A program made the translations under genes and the position numbers. A stretch of 64,000 nucleotides of DNA, from positions 1,922,001 to 1,986,000 of the forward strand of contig NZ_JAMKCQ010000001.1 of assembly GCF_024169515.1 (NCBI RefSeq), given 5' to 3'. The notes beneath the pieces were generated by a model, which was not told the origin of the DNA, did no database searches, and was given only the letters and a program-made list of their open reading frames with translations. Shown here piece after piece: positions 15,136-26,229 of the stretch. Each line of letters begins with the position of its first letter. The stretch's first letter is position 1. This stretch comes from Erwinia aphidicola. Lineage in GTDB: Bacteria > Pseudomonadota > Gammaproteobacteria > Enterobacterales > Enterobacteriaceae.

Positions 15136-16208
15136 CCAGAGTAATTCATCTTTTAGGCTCAGATATTCCGCATCACAACGCGACGGTGCTGGGCTTTTTT
15201 AACCAGGTTTTACATGAAGTTGCCCCATCTTCAACGCCGCGTGAGTTTTGGGTGGTGAGCGGGCAGGCCACCCTGGCTGGGCAGTATCCGCAGCTGGCTA
15301 TTCGCTTGTTCTCAAGCAAGGCGGAGCTGGCGCAGACGACGATTGCTACCGCCAGCCAGCAGCGCAGCACGCGCTTCTTCTGCCACGGGCAGTTCAATCC
15401 ACGCCTGTGGCTGGCCCTGCTGGCGGGCAGGATCGCACGCCAGCAGTTTTACTGGCATATCTGGGGGGCCGATCTGTATGAAGATGCGGCCAGCCTGAAG
15501 TTTCGTCTGTTCTATATGCTGCGGCGCCAGGCGCAAAAACGCGTGGGGCATGTGTTTGCCACCCGTGGCGACATCAATCACTTTCACCAGCGCTGCCCGC
15601 GCGTGCCGGCATCGCTGCTCTACTTCCCGACCCGGCTGGCGGATAGCGTGCCGGAAAGCCAGGCTGCTGACGGCCCGCTGACCATCCTGCTCGGTAATTC
15701 CGGGGATGCCAGCAATCGTCATATTCAGGCGTTAGAGGAGATCCATCAGCAGTTCGGCAATGGGGTGCAGGTGCTGGTGCCGCTGGGCTACCCGGCCAAC
15801 AATGACGTCTACATCGGGCGCGTGCGTGCGGCTGCGGATGCGCTTTTTGCACCGGGCCACGTGCAGCTGTTGACGGAGAAGCTGGCGTTCGATAACTATT
15901 TACAGCTGCTGTCTCGCTGTCACCTCGGCTATTTTATCTTCGAGCGCCAGCAGGGGATCGGCACGCTGTGTCTGCTGATGCAGGCCAACGTGCCGTTTGT
16001 GTTGAACCGCAAAAACCCGTTCTGGCAGGACCTGGCCGAGCAGCAGGTGCCGGTGCTGTTTAACGGCGATGCGCTGGATGCGGCGACTGTCGCGGAGGCG
16101 CGGCGTCAGCTGCAGAGCCTGGATAAAAGCCGCATCGCCTTTTTCGAGCCGGGCTATCTGGCGGGCTGGCAGCAGGCGCTGCAAATGGTGGAAGGGGAGA
16201 GCGCATGA
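15132..16208 (+). CDS. wecF: dTDP-Fuc4NAc:lipid II Fuc4NAc transferase
   Basis: Adds the third sugar (Fuc4NAc) to ECA lipid II at the cytoplasmic face of the inner membrane. The 358-residue GT56-family protein carries [19 protein letters not shown] at the N-terminus, [14 protein letters not shown], and the C-terminal [19 protein letters not shown]. Four-base overlaps with both wzxE and wzyE indicate tight coupling. Confidence 0.95.
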
Positions 16209-17551
16209 CCTTATTCGAGTTTGTCGGTCTGCTGGTGGTGTACCTGTGCTGCGGCGGATTTATCCTGACGCTGACATGGCGTGAGTTCAGGCGCGTGCGC
16301 TTCAACTTCAACGTCTTCTTCTCGCTGCTGTTTTTGCTGACCTTCTTCTTTGGTTTTCCGCTGACCTGCCTGCTGGTATTTGGCTTTGACGTGCAGGTGG
16401 TGCCGCCAGAGTATCTTTTACAGGCGCTGCTGTCGGCGGGCTGTTTCTATGCCATCTACTATGTCAGCTACAAGACCCGGCTGCGCGCGCGCAGCACGGC
16501 TCCTGCACGACAGATATTCACCATCAACCGTATTGAAGCCCACCTGAGCTGGGGACTGATGGCGCTGGTGGCGCTGGGCACCGTCAGCGTGTTCTTTATG
16601 CATAACGGCTTTCTGCTGTTTAAGCTGCACAGCTACAGCCAGATTTTCTCTGCGGATGTCTCCGGCGTGGCGCTCAAGCGCTTCTTCTACTTCTTTATTC
16701 CGGCGATGCTGGTGGTTTACTTCCTCAAGCAGGATTTACGCGGCTGGCTGTTCTTCCTCGTGGCCACCGTCGGCTTTGGTCTGCTGACCTACACCATCGT
16801 TGGCGGCACGCGCGCCAATATCATCATCGCTTTCGCCCTGTTTCTGTTTATCGGCATTATTCGCGGCTGGATCACGCTCTGGATGCTGGTGCTGGCGGGC
16901 GTGGGCGGTATTGTTGGCATGTTCTGGCTGGCGCTCAAGCGCTACAACCTCGACGTTAGCGGTCCGGAGGCGTTCTACACCTTCCTCTATCTGACGCGGG
17001 ATACCTTCTCCCCCTGGGAGAATCTCGGCCTGCTGCTGCAAAACTACGACAAGATTGATTTTCAGGGGCTGGCCCCCATCTGGCGCGATTTCTACGTGTT
17101 TATCCCCAGCTGGCTGTGGCACGGGCGGCCAACCGAAGTGCTTAACAGCGCGAACTACTTTACCTGGGAAGTGCTGGATAACCACTCGGGCCTGGCGATT
17201 TCCCCCACGCTGATTGGCTCACTGGTGGTGATGGGCGGCGCGCTGTTTATCCCGCTGGGTGCGGTTGCCGTCGGCATGATTATCAAATGGTTTGACTGGC
17301 TGTACGACAAAGGGCGCCATGAACCCAACCGCTACAAAGCCGCAATTCTGCAAAGCTTCTGTTTTGGCGCGGTGTTTAACATGATCGTGCTGGCGCGTGA
17401 GGGGCTGGATGCGTTTGCTTCACGCGTGGTGTTCTTCTGTATTATTTTTGCTGCCTGCGTGGTGGCCGCTAAGCTGCTGTACTGGCTGCTGGATGTGGCC
17501 GGGGTAGTTCGTCCGCGCGCGGCCAGCCGCCCGCTGTCGCCACAGCTGTAG
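16205..17551 (+). CDS. wzyE: ECA polymerase WzyE
   Basis: Inner-membrane polymerase that joins ECA repeat units on the periplasmic side under WzzE control. The 448-residue product has around ten or eleven hydrophobic segments and the family stretches [19 protein letters not shown] and [14 protein letters not shown]. The start overlaps the wecF stop by 4 bp. Confidence 0.94.
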
Positions 17552-18504: not shown

Positions 18505-18581
<77 letters not shown>

Positions 18582-18672
18582 TGAATTTTGTGCGCAATGA
18601 GCGGCGGTGGTAACATTTACCGCGTTAGTAAGAAGTAAAGCAGTCGCAACAAGCAGTAAAGAAATCAGGTAT

Positions 18673-18749
18673 GGTGGCTATAGCTCAGTTGGTAGAGCCC
18701 TGGATTGTGATTCCAGTTGTCGTGGGTTCGAGTCCCATTAGCCACCCCA
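18673..18749 (+). tRNA. hisR: tRNA-His (anticodon GTG)
   Basis: 77 nt including the extra 5' G(-1) that is diagnostic of tRNA-His; acceptor GTGGCTA/TAGCCAC, anticodon loop TTGTGAT, CCA encoded. Confidence 0.97.
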
Positions 18750-18775
18750 GATTTTTAGTAAAGATTTTGTCGTAT

Positions 18776-18862
18776 GCGAAGGTGGCGGAATTGGTAGACG
18801 CGCTAGCTTCAGGTGTTAGTGTCTTAACGGACGTGAGGGTTCAAGTCCCTCTCTTCGCACCA
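18776..18862 (+). tRNA. leuT: tRNA-Leu (anticodon CAG)
   Basis: 87 nt with the long class II variable arm (TGTCTTAACGGACG). Acceptor GCGAAGG pairs with the 3' strand CTCTTCGC (one mismatch or wobble); anticodon CAG in CTTCAGGT; CCA encoded. Confidence 0.96.
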
Positions 18863-18895
18863 CAAAATCTGTAGCAAAGAAGTGCCAGCAGTATT

Positions 18896-18972
18896 CGGCG
18901 AGTAGCGCAGCTTGGTAGCGCAACTGGTTTGGGACCAGTGGGTCGGAGGTTCGAATCCTCTCTCGCCGACCA
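18896..18972 (+). tRNA. proM: tRNA-Pro (anticodon TGG), copy 1
   Basis: 77 nt, acceptor CGGCGAG/CTCGCCG, anticodon loop TTTGGGA, CCA encoded. Followed by its own intrinsic terminator. Confidence 0.97.
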
Positions 18973-18980
18973 ATTTTAAG

Positions 18981-19004
18981 ACCCTGCTGTACTGCGGGGT
19001 TTTT
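18981..19004 (+). terminator. Terminator after first tRNA-Pro
   Basis: Stem ACCCTGC / GCGGGGT (one T-G wobble), loop TGTACT, followed by TTTTT. It lies between the two identical proline tRNAs. Confidence 0.75.
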
Positions 19005-19061
19005 GCTTAAAACCTGAAGGTTTGGGCAACGATAAGAAAAGTAGTGGCAAAAAGAAGTATT

Positions 19062-19138
19062 CGGCGAGTAGCGCAGCTTGGTAGCGCAACTGGTTTGGGA
19101 CCAGTGGGTCGGAGGTTCGAATCCTCTCTCGCCGACCA
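19062..19138 (+). tRNA. tRNA-Pro (anticodon TGG), copy 2
   Basis: Identical over all 77 nt to the copy at 18896-18972, and also sharing a few upstream bases (AGTATT). E. coli has one such gene at this place, so this is a local duplication. Confidence 0.97.
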
Positions 19139-19183
19139 ATTTAAGAAACCTGCTTGAAAAAGCAGGTTTTTTTTCGTCTGTAG
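19120..19183 (+). repeat. 64-bp direct repeat, copy A (3' end of tRNA-Pro plus terminator)
   Basis: Bases 19120-19183 recur exactly at 19279-19342. The unit comprises the last 19 bases of tRNA-Pro (from the T-loop to CCA), a terminator hairpin and a short tail ending CGTCTGTAG. Confidence 0.9.
19146..19174 (+). terminator. Terminator of the tRNA operon
   Basis: Perfect 10-bp stem AAACCTGCTT / AAGCAGGTTT with GAAA loop and a run of eight T. A second identical hairpin sits in the downstream repeat at about 19305-19333. Confidence 0.9.
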
Positions 19184-19278
19184 CCAATGAGGATGAGAAC
19201 CTCCGAAGGAGGTTTGAGCCGAGCGCAGCGAGACAGCGTTGCTTTAGCAACGGCCCGCAGGGCGGCTCGCAGAGCCGC
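19184..19278. other. Hairpin-rich segment between the two 64-bp repeats
   Basis: A 95-bp non-coding insert made of consecutive small hairpins: AACCTCC/GGAGGTT (19198-19214), CGTTGC/GCAACG (19237-19252), GCCC-GCA-GGGC (19253-19263) and GGCTC-GCA-GAGCC (19264-19276). No ORF. Its function is unknown. Confidence 0.7.
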
Positions 19279-19342
19279 AATCCTCTCTCGCCGACCAATT
19301 TAAGAAACCTGCTTGAAAAAGCAGGTTTTTTTTCGTCTGTAG
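19279..19342 (+). repeat. 64-bp direct repeat, copy B (truncated tRNA-Pro 3' end)
   Basis: Exact copy of 19120-19183. The upstream three quarters of the tRNA are missing, so only the 3' 19 bases remain; this resembles an att-type scar or partial duplication. Confidence 0.9.
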
Positions 19343-19655: not shown

Positions 19656-19860
19656 GTAGATGCTCATTCCACCTCTTATGTTTGCTAACGCTTCATAAAC
19701 CTGGGAATGATGCAGAGCCACATTACGGTACCTGTTGTCCAGCCAGCCAATATCGCTTACGCCTTATTGGATTTATCGGGCAAAACGTTGAGTCGGGTAC
19801 CAATCGGTTGTCTTAACCGACCTGATATTCAGACCTGCCAGATGGCAGGTCTTTTTTTTT
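19656..19860 (+). ncRNA. glmZ: Small regulatory RNA GlmZ
   Basis: A 205-nt RNA gene recognised by its conserved 5' part (GTAGATGCTCATTCC, CTCTTATGTT, GGAATGATGCAGAGCC), by the internal AAAACGTTGAGT and by ending in a strong intrinsic terminator (AGACCTGCC/GGCAGGTCT plus nine T). It occupies the same place as in E. coli, upstream of hemY. GlmZ base-pairs with the glmS leader, with Hfq, to increase glucosamine-6-phosphate synthase; GlmY and RapZ/RNase E control its cleavage. The three GlrR-like sites and the sigma-54 promoter suggest two-component (GlrK/GlrR) control here. Confidence 0.9.
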
Positions 19861-20029
19861 ACCTGGTGCCCGTCATCGTTCAGGTTGCAGATACGTCGGG
19901 TCATAATAACTGGCGAAAAAACTCGCCGGACAATGAAAACATGTCTCCTATGGATTGTTCTTTTTGTATGCACTCTTAATGGATGTTTGACATCTCTAAA
20001 ACAGTTTTTACATACTGTTGATTCAATTT

Positions 20030-20767
20030 TTACTGATAAATCAATTTACCAGCTGTAAGCCTGATCTGTTGCGGACCTGTGATAATGAATGAGACAGCTG
20101 ATTCAGAAAGCTGCATTTCCAATTCATATTCATTGCAAGGTTGCAGGGGATTTAAGAATTTAGCATTGTGGACTTGAAAATGCGTATTGAATCCGTAATT
20201 TAATAAAATATCACTAATAAACTCAATGATTAAAGAGGCCGGACAAACAGGATAGCCAGAGAAATGATTTTTTAGTATGTGATGGAATTCATTTATTTTA
20301 AATCTAATAAGTAACCTATCCTTTAATTTTTCAACTTCAAGTATATTAAACAAATCAGAACCATAACTAAGCATATCAACTGATGTATCGCAGTTAGTGA
20401 GTGGTATCTTTATCAGAAAAACATCTGCACGTCCTGATATCTGATCTGAAACTATCTGCGTTGTTCTGACATGTATAAATTCACCAGATGAAATCATCTC
20501 TCCTTTGAGAACCACTTTTTCCAGATTTATCGGATCATAAATATCCATGTTTTTAATCATCACAGGAATATAAACGCTGTCCGGATGTTTACCAAATACA
20601 CTTTCAGCTACAAGAGAAGAAAACTGATGGATTCCTTCAATTAGCAGCGCCTCATTTTTTCTAAGGTAAGACATAGTGTAATTTTTGATCAACAGGCGTC
20701 CAGTTGGAAATCCTTCAATTTGCTCGTGGTTTGAGTTTTTAATTTCGCATAGATCCAGAAAAGCCAT
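20030..20767 (-). CDS. FabZ-like double-hotdog dehydratase of the accessory cluster
   Basis: A 245-residue protein in AT-rich DNA. The C-terminal half has the FabA/FabZ dehydratase signature NHFSGYPVCPASLIIEF: His168 and Glu182 are spaced exactly as the catalytic His/Glu pair of FabZ, although the usual PGV after the second proline reads PAS. The N-terminal half (about residues 28-122) looks like a second, degenerate hotdog fold (YIPVMIKNMDIYDPI, VVLKGEMIS). It would dehydrate 3-hydroxyacyl-ACP to the trans-2-enoyl form. It is divergent from the ketoreductase gene across a 118-bp promoter region. The family is inferred from the motif; a thioesterase-like role is the alternative. Confidence 0.75.
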   Translation of the reverse strand: MAFLDLCEIKNSNHEQIEGFPTGRLLIKNYTMSYLRKNEALLIEGIHQFSSLVAESVFGKHPDSVYIPVMIKNMDIYDPINLEKVVLKGEMISSGEFIHVRTTQIVSDQISGRADVFLIKIPLTNCDTSVDMLSYGSDLFNILEVEKLKDRLLIRFKINEFHHILKNHFSGYPVCPASLIIEFISDILLNYGFNTHFQVHNAKFLNPLQPCNEYELEMQLSESAVSFIITGPQQIRLTAGKLIYQ

Positions 20768-20814
20768 TAAATATCCTTAATTAAGCCGAGTGAGTCAGGT
20801 AACGCTGCGGTTTG

Positions 20815-20830
20815 TGTGATCTTCATCACA
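20815..20830. promoter_or_regulatory. Perfect CRP site between the divergent accessory genes
   Basis: TGTGA-TCTTCA-TCACA, a full match to the CRP core TGTGA-N6-TCACA. Its centre (20822.5) lies 41.5 bp before the start predicted from the TATAAA at 20852-20857, the geometry of a class II CRP-activated promoter for the rightward operon. It could also act on the leftward dehydratase gene. Confidence 0.85.
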
Positions 20831-20851
20831 AAAAATGCTGAGAATAAATTA

Positions 20852-20857
20852 TATAAA
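20852..20857 (+). promoter_or_regulatory. Candidate -10 element of the rightward accessory operon
   Basis: TATAAA; no clear -35 box because that position is occupied by the CRP site. The predicted start is near 20864, about 22 bp before the ketoreductase ATG. Confidence 0.55.
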
Positions 20858-20885
20858 TTCGCACTTTCATGATTAGAGCAATTGT

Positions 20886-21638
20886 ATGTCTAAAAAAGAT
20901 AATGCTTCAACATCTAGAGTTTTAGTAGTCGGTGGAACCTCTGAAATAGGCAGGAAGGTAATATCCTCGCTTGCCGGTGATGGCTATTCTATCGATTTTA
21001 CCTATTTTACTAATGTAGGATGTAAGGATGAGATCTTAGAAGAAGTTAAGTTCACTAACTCATTTAAAGTAAACCTAACCGATCTGGATGCAGTATCTGA
21101 TTTTCTTAATGATATAGCTGAAGTCAATTACGATAGTGTAATCTACTGTCCAGGTGAGAATCCGTGTAAGTTGTGTCACGATCTTGCTCAGGATGATATT
21201 GTCAGAATAACAAACCTGAATTTCGTTTCCCCAACCTTAATTTTTAATCATTTAAGTAAAAAAATGGTTGAGTCAAAGGAAAAAGATAACCTGTTGGTTT
21301 ATTTCAGCTCAATATCATCTGGCAAAGCATCAATTGGCGACTCTGTTTACGGTGCAACGAAAATTGCTACTGAAAGATATCTTGCCTCATTGAGTCTCGA
21401 ACTGGCCAGGTTTAATGTCAGAACATTATGTATATCACCGGGTTTTGTCGATACGAAAATGATGCATAACTGTCGTGAAATATCGGGGGCATCATATAAC
21501 GATATCTTAAGGTCTATACCAGCAAGAAAAATGCTACAAACAACTGACGTGGCGAAGGTTGCTGCATTTTTTATAAACAACAAAAATGTTACCACGGGTA
21601 ATACCATCGTTATTGGGAATGGAGAAAAAGTATTTTGA
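20886..21638 (+). CDS. FabG-like 3-oxoacyl-ACP reductase (SDR) of the accessory cluster
   Basis: A 250-residue classical short-chain dehydrogenase/reductase. Visible are the nucleotide-binding GGTSEIG (residues 16-22), the Ser in VYFSSISSG (about Ser142), and the catalytic Tyr155-x3-Lys159 in SVYGATK. The tail (TTGNTIVIGNGE) resembles the FabG end. It probably reduces 3-oxoacyl-ACP in the pathway encoded by the following genes. First gene of the rightward operon; its stop overlaps the ACP start (TTGA). AT-rich codon use contrasts with the flanks. Confidence 0.85.
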   Translation: MSKKDNASTSRVLVVGGTSEIGRKVISSLAGDGYSIDFTYFTNVGCKDEILEEVKFTNSFKVNLTDLDAVSDFLNDIAEVNYDSVIYCPGENPCKLCHDLAQDDIVRITNLNFVSPTLIFNHLSKKMVESKEKDNLLVYFSSISSGKASIGDSVYGATKIATERYLASLSLELARFNVRTLCISPGFVDTKMMHNCREISGASYNDILRSIPARKMLQTTDVAKVAAFFINNKNVTTGNTIVIGNGEKVF

Positions 21639-22018
21639 ACATTCAAGAAAGAATCAAAAATGTGTTTAAAAAAGTGATGTATCTCAGTGAAGATACCCAC
21701 CTGGAGAATGATAAGTCTCTTTTTTTAATCTACGATATGTCTTCTGTTGATTTCATCGATTTTGCATTTGAAATCAGAAAGGAATTCAATGTGATTTCAA
21801 AGGATGAACATCTCTGGCCTGTTAAAAGTTTAATGGATAACCCTGATTATTACTCATCTGAAAATACATGGACGGATTTGGGTTTGAAAAAAATCAATGA
21901 ATGCTTATTGCTCAGCGAGGAGTGTCTCATCATGAATAGAAAAATCACCGCGAAGGAATTGATGGAGTACTTCACTATTAACTATATTACCAAAAGGCTA
22001 AGTCAGGAGATAAAGTGA
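21635..22018 (+). CDS. Acyl carrier protein with C-terminal extension
   Basis: A 127-residue acidic protein. The helix II region DMSSVDFIDFAFEIRKEF aligns with the ACP signature DSLDTVELVMALEEEF, so Ser37 is the likely 4'-phosphopantetheine site (SSV instead of DSL). The chain is about 45 residues longer than a usual ACP; the extra C-terminal part (MNRKITAKELMEYF and following) is of unknown role. The TTG start at 21635 is chosen because GGAG lies 10 nt upstream and the helix I residues precede the only internal ATG. Coupled to both neighbours by 4-bp overlaps. Confidence 0.75.
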   Translation: MNIQERIKNVFKKVMYLSEDTHLENDKSLFLIYDMSSVDFIDFAFEIRKEFNVISKDEHLWPVKSLMDNPDYYSSENTWTDLGLKKINECLLLSEECLIMNRKITAKELMEYFTINYITKRLSQEIK

Positions 22019-22995
22019 GTAAGGTGTATATTAATGGAATAGGAGTTAATGGTGGAAGATATGGTTCGCTGAGTGAGTTGCGGGCTATATTAAATAACAA
22101 AGCGACTACTCTGATTAACAAAAATGTATCTTTAACCAGCAGAGATATGATACAGCGCGAAGATCGTGCTGTTTTAAATTCAATAACATTGATGGCCGTG
22201 AATGCACTGCATGATTTACTATCACAAAATAGTTATGATGACAGGTCTGACTGGGACATATTTACAGCATGTGATTACGCTTTTGATGATAATTTACTGT
22301 GCGATGGTATCGCACATATCAAGGAGCGGGGGAAAGATAATTTTTGGCATTCACTGGCACTGTTTTCCGAAGTCGTTAATCCACTGGAGCTATTAAGAGG
22401 GCTCCCGACAAATACCTTATACCACATATCAAAAATTTTGAACAATAACGGAAAGGGATTGCCGGTAGATGCAGGTAATTTAAGTGAATTAGTTTCTTTG
22501 AATTTTATTCAGAACAACCGTCCAACGCTTATCGTCAGTGCAGGTGGACAAACCGGAACGAAAGATAGAGTTATTCAACGTAAAAATAAATTAGCAAACA
22601 GTTTTATTCAAAATATGACATGGGGAGGGTGTGCTCTGCTTACGGGGGACTACACACCTCAAAGTATTGGCAGCATTCAGGATGTTGTATTAACCAGCGA
22701 TCAATCTGCAGACTTATCGATATATTTAGACAAATATTTACCTGCTACCGATGATGCCGTTTATTTTATTCCTTTTGGGGAACGATTGCATGAATGGGAT
22801 GACGATGCGATCGCCAGGAGTTCCCTGAAGAAGATTGATTATGATGTGATTGGATATGCTGGCCGCCCAGATATGTTAACGAAACTTGCATGTTTCATGA
22901 ACGATGATAATGTTCCGGATCAATCCATAGCTTATTTATCAGGATATGACTCGCAATATGGTTTCGGTTGCGCTGTTATACAAAAAGGAGTATGA
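22015..22995 (+). CDS. Ketosynthase-like protein lacking the active-site Cys (chain-length-factor-like)
   Basis: A 326-residue thiolase-fold, ketosynthase-like protein. The segment NPLELLRGLPTNTLYHISK corresponds to the conserved NPxxLLxxLPN..HIS stretch of ketosynthases, and the following VDAGNLSEL aligns with VSTACASG, placing Asn155 where the nucleophilic Cys should be. The second half has SAGGQTGTKDR and WGGCALLTGD. The catalytic His motifs are not seen. This is the pattern of a ketosynthase partner (KS-beta/chain length factor) that pairs with the intact ketosynthase next door. GTG start with AGGAG upstream, overlapping the ACP stop. Confidence 0.65.
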   Translation: MSKVYINGIGVNGGRYGSLSELRAILNNKATTLINKNVSLTSRDMIQREDRAVLNSITLMAVNALHDLLSQNSYDDRSDWDIFTACDYAFDDNLLCDGIAHIKERGKDNFWHSLALFSEVVNPLELLRGLPTNTLYHISKILNNNGKGLPVDAGNLSELVSLNFIQNNRPTLIVSAGGQTGTKDRVIQRKNKLANSFIQNMTWGGCALLTGDYTPQSIGSIQDVVLTSDQSADLSIYLDKYLPATDDAVYFIPFGERLHEWDDDAIARSSLKKIDYDVIGYAGRPDMLTKLACFMNDDNVPDQSIAYLSGYDSQYGFGCAVIQKGV

Positions 22996-22996
22996 A

Positions 22997-24280
22997 ATGA
23001 ACAAGGCTGAAGCATCCGTTTCTCCTCTGTGTATTAGCGTTTACAGTGCCATAACACCATTAGGAAACTCTATTGATGAGGTCTCTCCTTTTCTGAAGAA
23101 TAAAGTTTCTGGTTTTTCTGAAATAAATAAATTTCATACTGAAGATTATAAGTGTAAGTTTGCCGGAATTCCCCAGGCGTACAATAGAAATCTCGCATGG
23201 CCAGCCAAAAATGAAAGTACCCCCTATGAGGTTCTCTATGCCAGAGATGCGGCCAGTCAATTAATTCGAAAAATTAATATCTTCAATTACTATGATCCGC
23301 ATGAAGTAGGCTGTATTCTTGGTGTTGAGCAACCTATTTTAGATGTTAATATCTGCAAAGCTGTTCATGATAATTTATCCGGAGATATCACTAAAGAATC
23401 TGTATTCACCGCAGCGAGAGACAGTTTCGATGCAAAACTTTTCGAGGCTAGCACTCCCGGAGGCCTTATTAATGAAGTAAAAAAACATATACCATTCTCT
23501 GCATTTTCAATCACCTTGCCCGGTGTTTGTGCCGCATCTTTACAAAGTGTATCGATGGCTATAGAGAGTATAGAGTCAGGCACGGCAAGAGCGGTAATAT
23601 GTGGTGGCATATCTGCTAAGGTCACCCCCTTCGATTTGGCCCTCTTTGAGGGGATGGGAGTCGTCAGTACCGATGTGCGCTTTAACGCCGATGAAATGTC
23701 AAGACCATTCGATAAAGACAGGGGCGGATTTGTACTGTCTGAAGGGGCAGTCCTGTTTTTGATTGAGAGAGAGTCCGAAGTCTTAAAGCGGGGCGACAGC
23801 CCTTTGCTGCGAATTTGTGGGCATGGGTTTTCGATGAGTGCACAACATATTGTCACACCCCATACTGATGAAACTGAAATGACCTCTGCCATGTTGAGAG
23901 CACTGGAGCGATCAAAACTGAATCCTGCAGATATAGATGCCATCAGTGCTCACGGAACATCAACGCAGCAGAATGATTTACATGAAGCTAATGCTATTGC
24001 TAAGATTTTTAAACAACATAAGCCGTATGTGACGGCAACGAAGTCCAACCACGGTCATATGATGGCCGCTGCGGGAGCGATGGAAATCCTATGCATCATT
24101 TCATATTTGAAGCATGGTTATATTCCCGGTATCGCCAATCTTAATAAGGTGGATAATAATATCCCTGAGATCAATCTGGTAAAAAACACCACTGAATTTA
24201 GGCCCAGATATATACTCAAAAATTCGTTTGGGATGGGAGGTGTAGCGTCTTCTGTTATCTTTGAATCTTATATGTGTTAG
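22997..24280 (+). CDS. Beta-ketoacyl-ACP synthase (FabF-like) of the accessory cluster
   Basis: A 427-residue condensing enzyme with the full Cys-His-His set: Cys178 in LPGVCAASLQS, His319 in SAHGTSTQQND, and Lys349/His354 in ATKSNHGHMMAAAG; the C-terminal NSFGMGGVASS loop is also intact. It should condense malonyl-ACP with an acyl primer held on the neighbouring ACP or on the enzyme. The open frame begins upstream at 22946 inside the previous gene; the ATG at 22997 follows AAGGAG at a 6-nt spacing and starts one base after the previous stop. The middle is less conserved than in housekeeping FabF, suggesting a specialised pathway. Confidence 0.88.
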   Translation: MNKAEASVSPLCISVYSAITPLGNSIDEVSPFLKNKVSGFSEINKFHTEDYKCKFAGIPQAYNRNLAWPAKNESTPYEVLYARDAASQLIRKINIFNYYDPHEVGCILGVEQPILDVNICKAVHDNLSGDITKESVFTAARDSFDAKLFEASTPGGLINEVKKHIPFSAFSITLPGVCAASLQSVSMAIESIESGTARAVICGGISAKVTPFDLALFEGMGVVSTDVRFNADEMSRPFDKDRGGFVLSEGAVLFLIERESEVLKRGDSPLLRICGHGFSMSAQHIVTPHTDETEMTSAMLRALERSKLNPADIDAISAHGTSTQQNDLHEANAIAKIFKQHKPYVTATKSNHGHMMAAAGAMEILCIISYLKHGYIPGIANLNKVDNNIPEINLVKNTTEFRPRYILKNSFGMGGVASSVIFESYMC

Positions 24281-24283
24281 CCA

Positions 24284-24907
24284 ATGCTATTATACACTCT
24301 TAATGGTGATGAAGGTTGTATTTATATTTTCAGGCAGCGCCATAATGGCGTTGTCAGATTGTTGTCTCAGCTATCGTGGCTATATGTACCCGGGTATATA
24401 TTAAATTCCAGTAAGTTAACGAAAAATAAATATATCTCCTCTATTATTTTACGTGCATTTATCGGAGTGATTAACAAAGTTCAGCGGCGAAGAGGGAAGT
24501 GGTCTTTTAGTCATTCAGAAAATGAAACTCTTTGTGCGTATACTGCTACAAAATTAATTAAAAGTATTGGTGTTGATATTGAATGCGTCACTGGCAAACC
24601 ACGAGAATCAATAATAACCTATCTGGGAAATAGCATTGGTAATAACCTAATAAAAACCACTTTAAATCCCCATGAGATGGCAATCATTGTTATGTCGTGC
24701 ATGGAAAGTGCTTTTAAAGCACTCTCTTTTTCAATAAAAGAAGATTTTTCTTTAGATTTGTTTGATGTTCTATTGATAACTGAAAATACCTGTCGCCTCA
24801 GAATTAAACTCATTAAAAATGAATGCTTTATCGCTAATGTCCATTACGTCCTGAACGACAGGCGGGTCGTTTCTGTGTGCTGTGTCAGAAATACCGATTT
24901 AACCTGA
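24284..24907 (+). CDS. 4'-Phosphopantetheinyl transferase (Sfp/EntD type)
   Basis: A 207-residue protein with the Sfp-superfamily motifs: WSFSHSE (about 73-79), SIGVDIE with the Mg-binding Asp98/Glu100, and SCMESAFKAL with Glu141 and Lys145, 43 residues after Asp98. The usual K of KE is Met140, a deviation. It would transfer phosphopantetheine from CoA to Ser37 of the cluster ACP. It starts 3 bp after the ketosynthase stop and is the last gene of the rightward operon; it converges with hemY. Confidence 0.78.
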   Translation: MLLYTLNGDEGCIYIFRQRHNGVVRLLSQLSWLYVPGYILNSSKLTKNKYISSIILRAFIGVINKVQRRRGKWSFSHSENETLCAYTATKLIKSIGVDIECVTGKPRESIITYLGNSIGNNLIKTTLNPHEMAIIVMSCMESAFKALSFSIKEDFSLDLFDVLLITENTCRLRIKLIKNECFIANVHYVLNDRRVVSVCCVRNTDLT

Positions 24908-24994
24908 CCAGCCGGGAGTGATGCAGTAATTGAGTTATCACTTTCACGTCAGGTTGACGATCTGGATCCGACACTGATGCTAATGCGACAGAGT

Positions 24995-25020
24995 AAAAAA
25001 AAACCGGGCAGAGCCCGGTT
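24995..25020 (-). terminator. Terminator of the hemCDXY operon
   Basis: Stem AACCGGGC / GCCCGGTT with a 3-nt loop, followed on the reverse strand by a run of T (A run 24995-25003 on the forward strand). It lies just downstream of hemY and may also stop transcription from the accessory cluster less efficiently. Confidence 0.85.
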
Positions 25021-25038: not shown

Positions 25039-26229
25039 TCAGGGATTATTCTTCAGCGTCAGCAGCAGGCCGTCGCGACGCATGCTGGCCGCTTCTTCCG
25101 GCTTGTGCTGGCGGTCCAGCGTATCGGCCAGCCAGGCATAGTCAAACGCGTCCGGGCGCTGCGCGAGCGCAGAACGGAAGGCTTCACTGGCCTGTTCCCA
25201 CTCCCCGTGCTGCATCAGCAGTTGCCCCAGCGTGCTGTACAGCAGCGGCGTGGCGCCGTGCTGCTTAATCTGCTGGCGCAGTGCTTTTTCCAGCTGCTCC
25301 GGGTTACCGGTTTTCAGGCGCGGCATCAGCAGCACCAGGCGCTCATCATACTGGCGCTTGAGGCCATCCAGCACGATTTGCTGCGCGGTGTCATGGTCGT
25401 CACAGACGATCAGGTGATCGGCCATGGCGACCTGCAATGCAGTTTCATGACGCGTTTTACGGCTCTGATTCTGCCACCAGCGCTTCAGGCCATCGCTGCC
25501 CTGATCGGCCATTGCCTGGCTCATCAGACCCAGCCATGCCTGCTGCTGTAGCGCAACACGATGAGTTTCATCACCCACCTGCACTTTCTCCATCGCTGGC
25601 AGAATATCTAACAGCGCGCTCCATGCTTGAGTGCGCACGTAAGCCTGCTCGGCCAGGCGCAGCACTTCAGGATGACGCGGAGCAATCTCCAGCAGGCGGT
25701 CAACGCCGTGACGGGCGGCGTGATCTTCATTACGTGCCAGCTGGATGCGCACGCGGGTAATCTCAACCGGCAGCGGGTCGCCGTCGTTGAGCTCGGTGGC
25801 ACGTTCCAGATGCTGATTGGCGCGGATTTCGTCACCGCGCTGCTGAGCGGCCTCAGCGGCCAGCAGATAGTTGACCATAGGCTGCTCAGCGTGATCGGCA
25901 TGGCGCGACAGCAGTTTTTCCACCTGCTGGTAGTCACCTTCCGCCAGCTTCACCAGCGCAGCATTGGTCTGCTTGCGGGCGCTGCGGCGTTTACGACCGG
26001 TGAACCAGCCACGGGTGCGGGCGCCGGTGCGGAAAATGCGGCGCAGCAGCCATTCGATAGCGAGGATCGCCAGCAGCGCCAGCACCAGCATAATCACCAG
26101 GCCAGTCACGCTGGTTTCAATATTCCAGTTATCGGTCTGGATCAGCACATAGCCCTGATGGCCCGCTATCATTGGGCCAATCACCACGCCAGCGATTAAC
26201 AGCAGGAAAAGAAGGAGAACTTTTAACAT
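25039..26229 (-). CDS. hemY: Inner-membrane TPR protein HemY
   Basis: A 396-residue protein with two N-terminal membrane helices (about 1-20 and 40-62) and a cytoplasmic TPR-rich domain (for example EGDYQQVEKLLSRHA, LLAAEAAQQRGDEIRANQHLERATEL, LLMQHGEWEQASEAFRSAL). It is linked to haem synthesis only by operon position and regulation; it is not the protoporphyrinogen oxidase of the same name in Bacillus. Last gene of hemC-hemD-hemX-hemY, 2 bp after hemX. Confidence 0.94.
   Translation of the reverse strand: MLKVLLLFLLLIAGVVIGPMIAGHQGYVLIQTDNWNIETSVTGLVIMLVLALLAILAIEWLLRRIFRTGARTRGWFTGRKRRSARKQTNAALVKLAEGDYQQVEKLLSRHADHAEQPMVNYLLAAEAAQQRGDEIRANQHLERATELNDGDPLPVEITRVRIQLARNEDHAARHGVDRLLEIAPRHPEVLRLAEQAYVRTQAWSALLDILPAMEKVQVGDETHRVALQQQAWLGLMSQAMADQGSDGLKRWWQNQSRKTRHETALQVAMADHLIVCDDHDTAQQIVLDGLKRQYDERLVLLMPRLKTGNPEQLEKALRQQIKQHGATPLLYSTLGQLLMQHGEWEQASEAFRSALAQRPDAFDYAWLADTLDRQHKPEEAASMRRDGLLLTLKNNP

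Follow-up and report, generated by a model that had tools for sequence, protein, structure and literature searches.

What does a compact, AT-rich block of six genes between the small RNA gene glmZ and hemY of Erwinia aphidicola make, and how did it come to stand there? The question arises from a stretch of 64,000 nucleotides (the window; contig NZ_JAMKCQ010000001.1, positions 1,922,001 to 1,986,000), in which positions 20030-24907 encode a dehydratase (DH), a ketoreductase (KR), an acyl carrier protein (ACP), a chain-length-factor-like ketosynthase partner (CLF), a ketosynthase (KS) and a phosphopantetheinyl transferase (PPTase). Judged from its sequence, this island is probably a horizontally acquired and reduced core of a highly reducing type II polyketide synthase (PKS), related to the PNP-4 antibiotic cluster of Pantoea agglomerans, which would make an unsaturated acyl-ACP.

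The answer starts from the gene content. A sequence-only reading of the window had described six adjacent genes with family motifs, and all six open reading frames (ORFs) were found intact at that place, together with the named residues. The DH gene (20030..20767, minus strand) is divergent from the five others, which lie on the plus strand with gene ends overlapping or spaced by 1-3 nt. It encodes a 3-hydroxyacyl-ACP dehydratase modelled as a fused double hotdog, with Glu44 in the N-terminal and His168 in the C-terminal domain, whose halves are encoded as separate genes in seven relatives. The KR (20886..21638), an SDR-family 3-ketoacyl-ACP reductase, has the SSIS and VYGATK motifs, the ACP (21635..22018, 127 aa, listed with a TTG start) has Ser37 as its phosphopantetheine site, the KS (22997..24280) has Cys178, His319 and His354, and the Sfp/EntD-like PPTase (24284..24907) has GVDIE at position 96 and ESAFK at position 141; we take these KS, ACP, KR and PPTase motifs to have their usual catalytic roles in these proteins. 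The KS start was placed at ATG 22997, i.e. 1 nt past the CLF stop, the longest ORF beginning at 22946.

The remaining gene (22015..22995, plus strand, GTG start) had been read as encoding a ‘Cys-less’ KS-like partner. The active-site cysteine is indeed missing, but the protein is not free of cysteine, as it contains five, none of them aligned with the active-site position. No relevant match to it was found in the Pfam scan, and the assignment is now carried by the alignment and by a fold model (predicted local distance difference test score, pLDDT, 82.4), for which the top-ranked structures were the KS-CLF entries of the ishigamide and AntDE systems. A CLF-type KS partner is thus backed by the fold model, a fold that does not by itself prove a heterodimer. 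The presence of a Cys-His-His KS beside such a partner, together with a discrete ACP, KR and DH and no enoyl reductase, supports a highly reducing type II PKS character, so that the earlier proposal of such a set, including its PPTase, is borne out by gene content, residues and CLF fold.

As to how the genes arrived, both proposed flanks were recovered, i.e. glmZ (19656..19858, plus strand; RF00083, 143.6 bits) and hemY (25039..26229, minus strand; NF008017, 781.8 bits). Between their terminators lies an AT-rich region with approximate edges (19870..24995, no strand assigned), with a G+C content of 38.1% versus 56.7% in the remaining window; the earlier contrast with the flanks holds for the whole block, its figures of 33% and 58% being those of single lines. 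We surveyed this junction in 30 hemY loci taken from 37 Erwinia genomes, all 37 with a hemY match. The glmZ-hemY spacing was 39-243 bp, i.e. the junction was empty, in 26 of the 30; the others comprised two island carriers, one locus starting close to a contig end and one without glmZ there. The CLF gene was found in 2/37 Erwinia genomes, both E. aphidicola. Since the junction is empty in 26/30 loci, the block is, on this comparison, an insertion within the E. aphidicola lineage. No integrase or att repeat was recognised at the island. Upstream of glmZ, the window holds an RtT element and a tRNA array in the order Arg-His-Leu-Pro-Pro, in which tRNA-Pro occurs twice (18505-19297), and in one Erwinia genome (L095, G018) the tRNA cluster is present without glmZ between the tRNA-Pro genes and hemY.

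Relatives of the island were sought by a KS-alignment scan of GTDB representative contigs, which returned at least 80 loci. Among the matches listed, 19 (L008-L026) formed the KS subfamily, and the other 61, ketosynthases at 27-38% identity, were left out. The nearest of these public loci is that of strain JCM 21238 (L008), with a KS identity of 98%. In all 18 of the other related loci listed, KR, ACP, CLF and KS were present, ACP-CLF-KS were consecutive and an adenylating-ligase match lay near the core, several of these loci ending early. In contrast, neither window positions 10001-35000 nor the JCM 21238 locus gave a ligase, methyltransferase or citrate-synthase-like match. The recurrence of gene order in other genomes was found for its KR-ACP-CLF-KS part: the KR precedes ACP-CLF-KS, as in the island, in 12/18, and lies further downstream in six (L020-L023, L025 and L026). 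Around the core, methyltransferase, nicotianamine-synthase (NAS)-like and citrate-synthase-like neighbours occur in the Kosakonia, Rahnella and Burkholderia loci, and an ATP-grasp neighbour in those of Woeseia, Oxalobacteraceae, Pseudomonas, Pseudovibrio and Roseobacter. In the Pseudomonas, Pseudovibrio and Roseobacter loci an N-acetyltransferase-family protein also lies beside the core, and most related loci have DUF6622 near it. Nearest to a minimal set among the matches listed is Enterobacter asburiae L014, with the core, one ligase, DH and PPTase, followed further on by a dehydrogenase and an aminotransferase of uncertain cluster membership. The Solimicrobium cluster ends with a gene for a pentapeptide-repeat protein (L016:17434-17742), and L024 and L015 hold ORFs belonging to the same sequence group. 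Proteins of this kind can protect gyrase, and this one might hint at the target of the product of these three clusters.

The order KR-ACP-CLF-KS is also that of PNP-4-type clusters. In the available part of the original description from 2020, PNP-4 is ‘cluster 675’ of P. agglomerans B025670, with genes 1-7 given as SDR, ACP, domainless, KS, AMP-binding, PPTase and RND, and genes 8-14 as methyltransferase, PaaK-like, weak oxidoreductase match, citrate-synthase-like, two domainless proteins and a membrane protein; disruption of the KS or the pump is described there as abolishing inhibition of several targets, not all (PMC7744662). The name PNP-4 and the count of 14 genes come from a 2024 survey, which in its accessible text reports Pantoea as the only genus with the cluster (PMC11350110). 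Our comparison was made via the Kosakonia locus L010 and the published gene table. L010 reads KR, ACP, CLF, KS, AMP ligase, PPTase, methyltransferase, PaaK-like, NAS-like, citrate-synthase-like, DH and DUF6622, and thus matches most of the published cluster gene for gene; it holds no RND gene, and upstream of it lie a two-component system and an exporter of the MacB/LolA type. Its NAS-like (15263-16108, under the Pfam cut-off) and citrate-synthase-like (16112-17185) genes are an unusual pairing with a highly reducing type II PKS core. Because they match L010 in position and family, the domainless PNP-4 genes 3 and 12 are suggested to encode the CLF and the double-hotdog DH, respectively. The earlier description of the island as possibly undescribed therefore needs qualifying, its core being related to PNP-4 (PMC7744662); the six-gene form itself is absent from the search matches listed.

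The KS phylogeny bears on how the island came to be so small. KS identities between the island and family members outside the island type are around 37-47%. The island type comprises four KS sequences, two of them on short contigs and with flanks read for Erwinia alone, and in a tree of 44 rows these four formed one clade (support 100/100), nested in a clade of 18 rows (100/98) that includes enterobacteria and Bartonella. Support for joining one further row was weaker (91/89), and the program warned of long branches there. Because the island-type KS is nested in this wider clade and all 18 relatives have a ligase match, loss from a larger cluster would be the simpler history. The family spans Pseudomonas and Burkholderia to Bartonella. 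In Bartonella grahamii, an alphaproteobacterium (L012), only the NAS-like match was missing among the PNP-4-type genes tested, and its KS is nested with those of Kosakonia and Rahnella; therefore, a cross-class transfer of a PNP-4-type cluster to Bartonella is suggested.

Closer to the island, one Morganella contig carries relatives of DH, CLF and KS together, at 61-85% identity. It is tempting to speculate that the six genes are a mobile, free-standing acyl-ACP generator, spreading as a unit in Enterobacterales (Erwinia, Morganella and two or more other records) and feeding an unsaturated acyl chain to acceptors of its hosts after shedding its own loading and release enzymes, which the 18 other related loci appear to retain, a scenario that we regard as distinctly unlikely.

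How a reduced PNP-4-type core would work can be outlined from its parts. A highly reducing type II cycle has been described (PMC7949117, in the part consulted). In the island, the ACP would be armed by the island PPTase or a housekeeping one, and malonyl units would be loaded by housekeeping FabD. An ORF beside the genome's own fabF (L129), presumably fabD, occupies the FabD position. A putative KS-CLF heterodimer would then extend a small starter by repeated condensation of malonyl units, each beta-keto step being reduced by the KR and dehydrated by the fused double-hotdog DH. As a dedicated enoyl reductase is lacking, the chain would stay unsaturated, giving a dienoyl or polyenoyl acyl-ACP, its length presumably limited by the CLF, and the acyl group would pass to an acceptor encoded elsewhere. 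We infer the heterodimer, loading, product, chain length and acceptor alike. In agreement with the sequence-only reading, the six genes showed, in the ORF list and Pfam scan, neither an acyltransferase, a ligase or a thioesterase nor an enoyl reductase or an exporter.

The lack of an offloading gene would also suit an accessory supplier of acyl-ACP, whose acceptor elsewhere in the genome, for instance a lipid acyltransferase or an enzyme resembling an autoinducer synthase, would alter lipids or a signal. A weak Autoind_synth (PF00765) match was found in the same genome (L135, G000:C1:3464146-3464418; E 4.7e-6, 27.7 bits against a cut-off of 24) and in none of 14 control genomes, and the aryl-polyene assay in the literature, as far as the consulted text goes, included FabD and its cross-talk (PMC8358021). 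Nevertheless, the other 18 relatives listed all have a ligase match nearby and the link between the Autoind_synth match and the island is putative, which makes this role very doubtful. The same genome also holds what is, by its gene content, another small gene set for acyl synthesis and export (L130:1260-8758, C1 at ~1.104-1.112 Mb), with an HlyD-type adaptor, a MacB-type exporter, an outer-membrane efflux protein, a ketosynthase, an SDR reductase and a 263-aa protein with no Pfam match at 1e-5.

The 118-bp DH/KR intergenic region, identical in strain JCM 21238, contains a perfect CRP-type palindrome (TGTGA-N6-TCACA, 20815..20830, no strand assigned; 0.05 expected in the window) of predicted function, with TATAAA ~21 bp downstream. 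The palindrome would sit near -41 of a KR start site, and control of the island by CRP may be inferred. The consensus promoter scan listed no plus-strand site at the TATAAA position.

Several observations weigh against a working PNP-4-type core. While KS and KR score far over their Pfam cut-offs, the ACP (PF00550, 20.1 vs 20.8 bits), the DH (16.5 vs 23) and the PPTase (PF01648, 18.4 vs 25) missed theirs; ACP and DH are nonetheless supported by residues, homologues and, for the DH, the modelled fold. The solved structures closest to the KS by sequence are of the FabF/KasA types rather than the ishigamide KS, and promoter-like sites in the region did not exceed those of shuffled sequences (13 vs 18.1). 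Two non-core PNP-4-type proteins were not found in the island's own genome by a search for which Kosakonia served as positive control; a third, sought with no such control, was not found either. The island genes include no ligase, transferase or thioesterase, and there is no known product for any family member. In another E. aphidicola record (P0010, a 4.5-Mb contig) the KS frame is broken after around residue 210. Compared with JCM 21238 (130 differences over 5500 bp, gapless), the PPTase by itself fits neutral drift (ratio of non-synonymous to synonymous substitution rates, dN/dS, 0.76, p 0.36), and the ACP alone, with too few changes, is not significant (0.33, p 0.22).

Part of this would be expected if the island were the decaying rest of a once fuller PNP-4-type cluster, stripped of ligases, tailoring enzymes and exporter and no longer yielding a product: all 18 relatives listed have the ligase match missing here, no constraint is detectable on the PPTase, and the KS frameshift of P0010 is joined by a DH record of just 147 aa (P0129). 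Because of these two records, some strains may be losing the island; in JCM 21238, an altered CLF stop codon adds five residues. By contrast, the other genes stand at 0.25 (DH), 0.16 (KR), 0.22 (CLF) and 0.24 (KS), i.e. five of the six at 0.16-0.33, and the pooled dN/dS of 0.275 departs strongly from neutrality (p 6.5e-12, binomial test), which argues against a dead remnant. The set also appears to have lasted, because DH, CLF and KS relatives share the Morganella contig and the island-type KS clade has full support, and the DH/KR intergenic region is unchanged between two strains. Decay is therefore an unlikely explanation.

Among known systems, the ishigamide type II PKS (6kxd-6kxf) is among the top ranks for the CLF fold, yet at 13% sequence identity, and the KS, as noted, leans towards FabF/KasA. 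AntDE-AntF, an anthraquinone type II PKS, has a similar KS-partner fold but no comparable reducing set; its products are aromatic. The aryl-polyene systems (ApeO-ApeC, ApeQ, ApeI:ApeP) share the KS-CLF logic, a KR and two hotdog DH units, and the C-terminal domain of the island DH is a close fit to one of the chains in the ApeI:P complex. Close homologues of the DH carry the precomputed database label PF22818, which the local Pfam scan did not assign to it; a whole-genome PF22818 search was empty but uninformative, as it also misses the island DH and passes its cut-off in 0/14 controls. In the island, however, the DH units are fused and envelope-export genes are absent, and, measured against the gene table available from PMC8253772, it has a single ACP and lacks an ApeH-type ligase, a second KS (ApeR), LolA, RND and acyltransferase genes. 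An aryl-polyene pigment system, already disfavoured, is thus extremely improbable. PNP-4 resembles the island in the order of KR, ACP, a domainless protein that by position and family is a CLF, and KS, in its PPTase (gene 6), in gene 12 at the DH position and in a G+C content below that of its host (given as 45.48% vs 54.85%); its 14 genes include two AMP-binding ligases, a methyltransferase, a citrate-synthase-like gene and an RND pump, of which the six-gene island has none. The proposal for genes 3 and 12 would link this orphan antibiotic cluster with the chemistry of highly reducing type II PKSs, and the island, as the smallest version among the loci examined, offers a convenient set for reconstituting the chain of this family in vitro.
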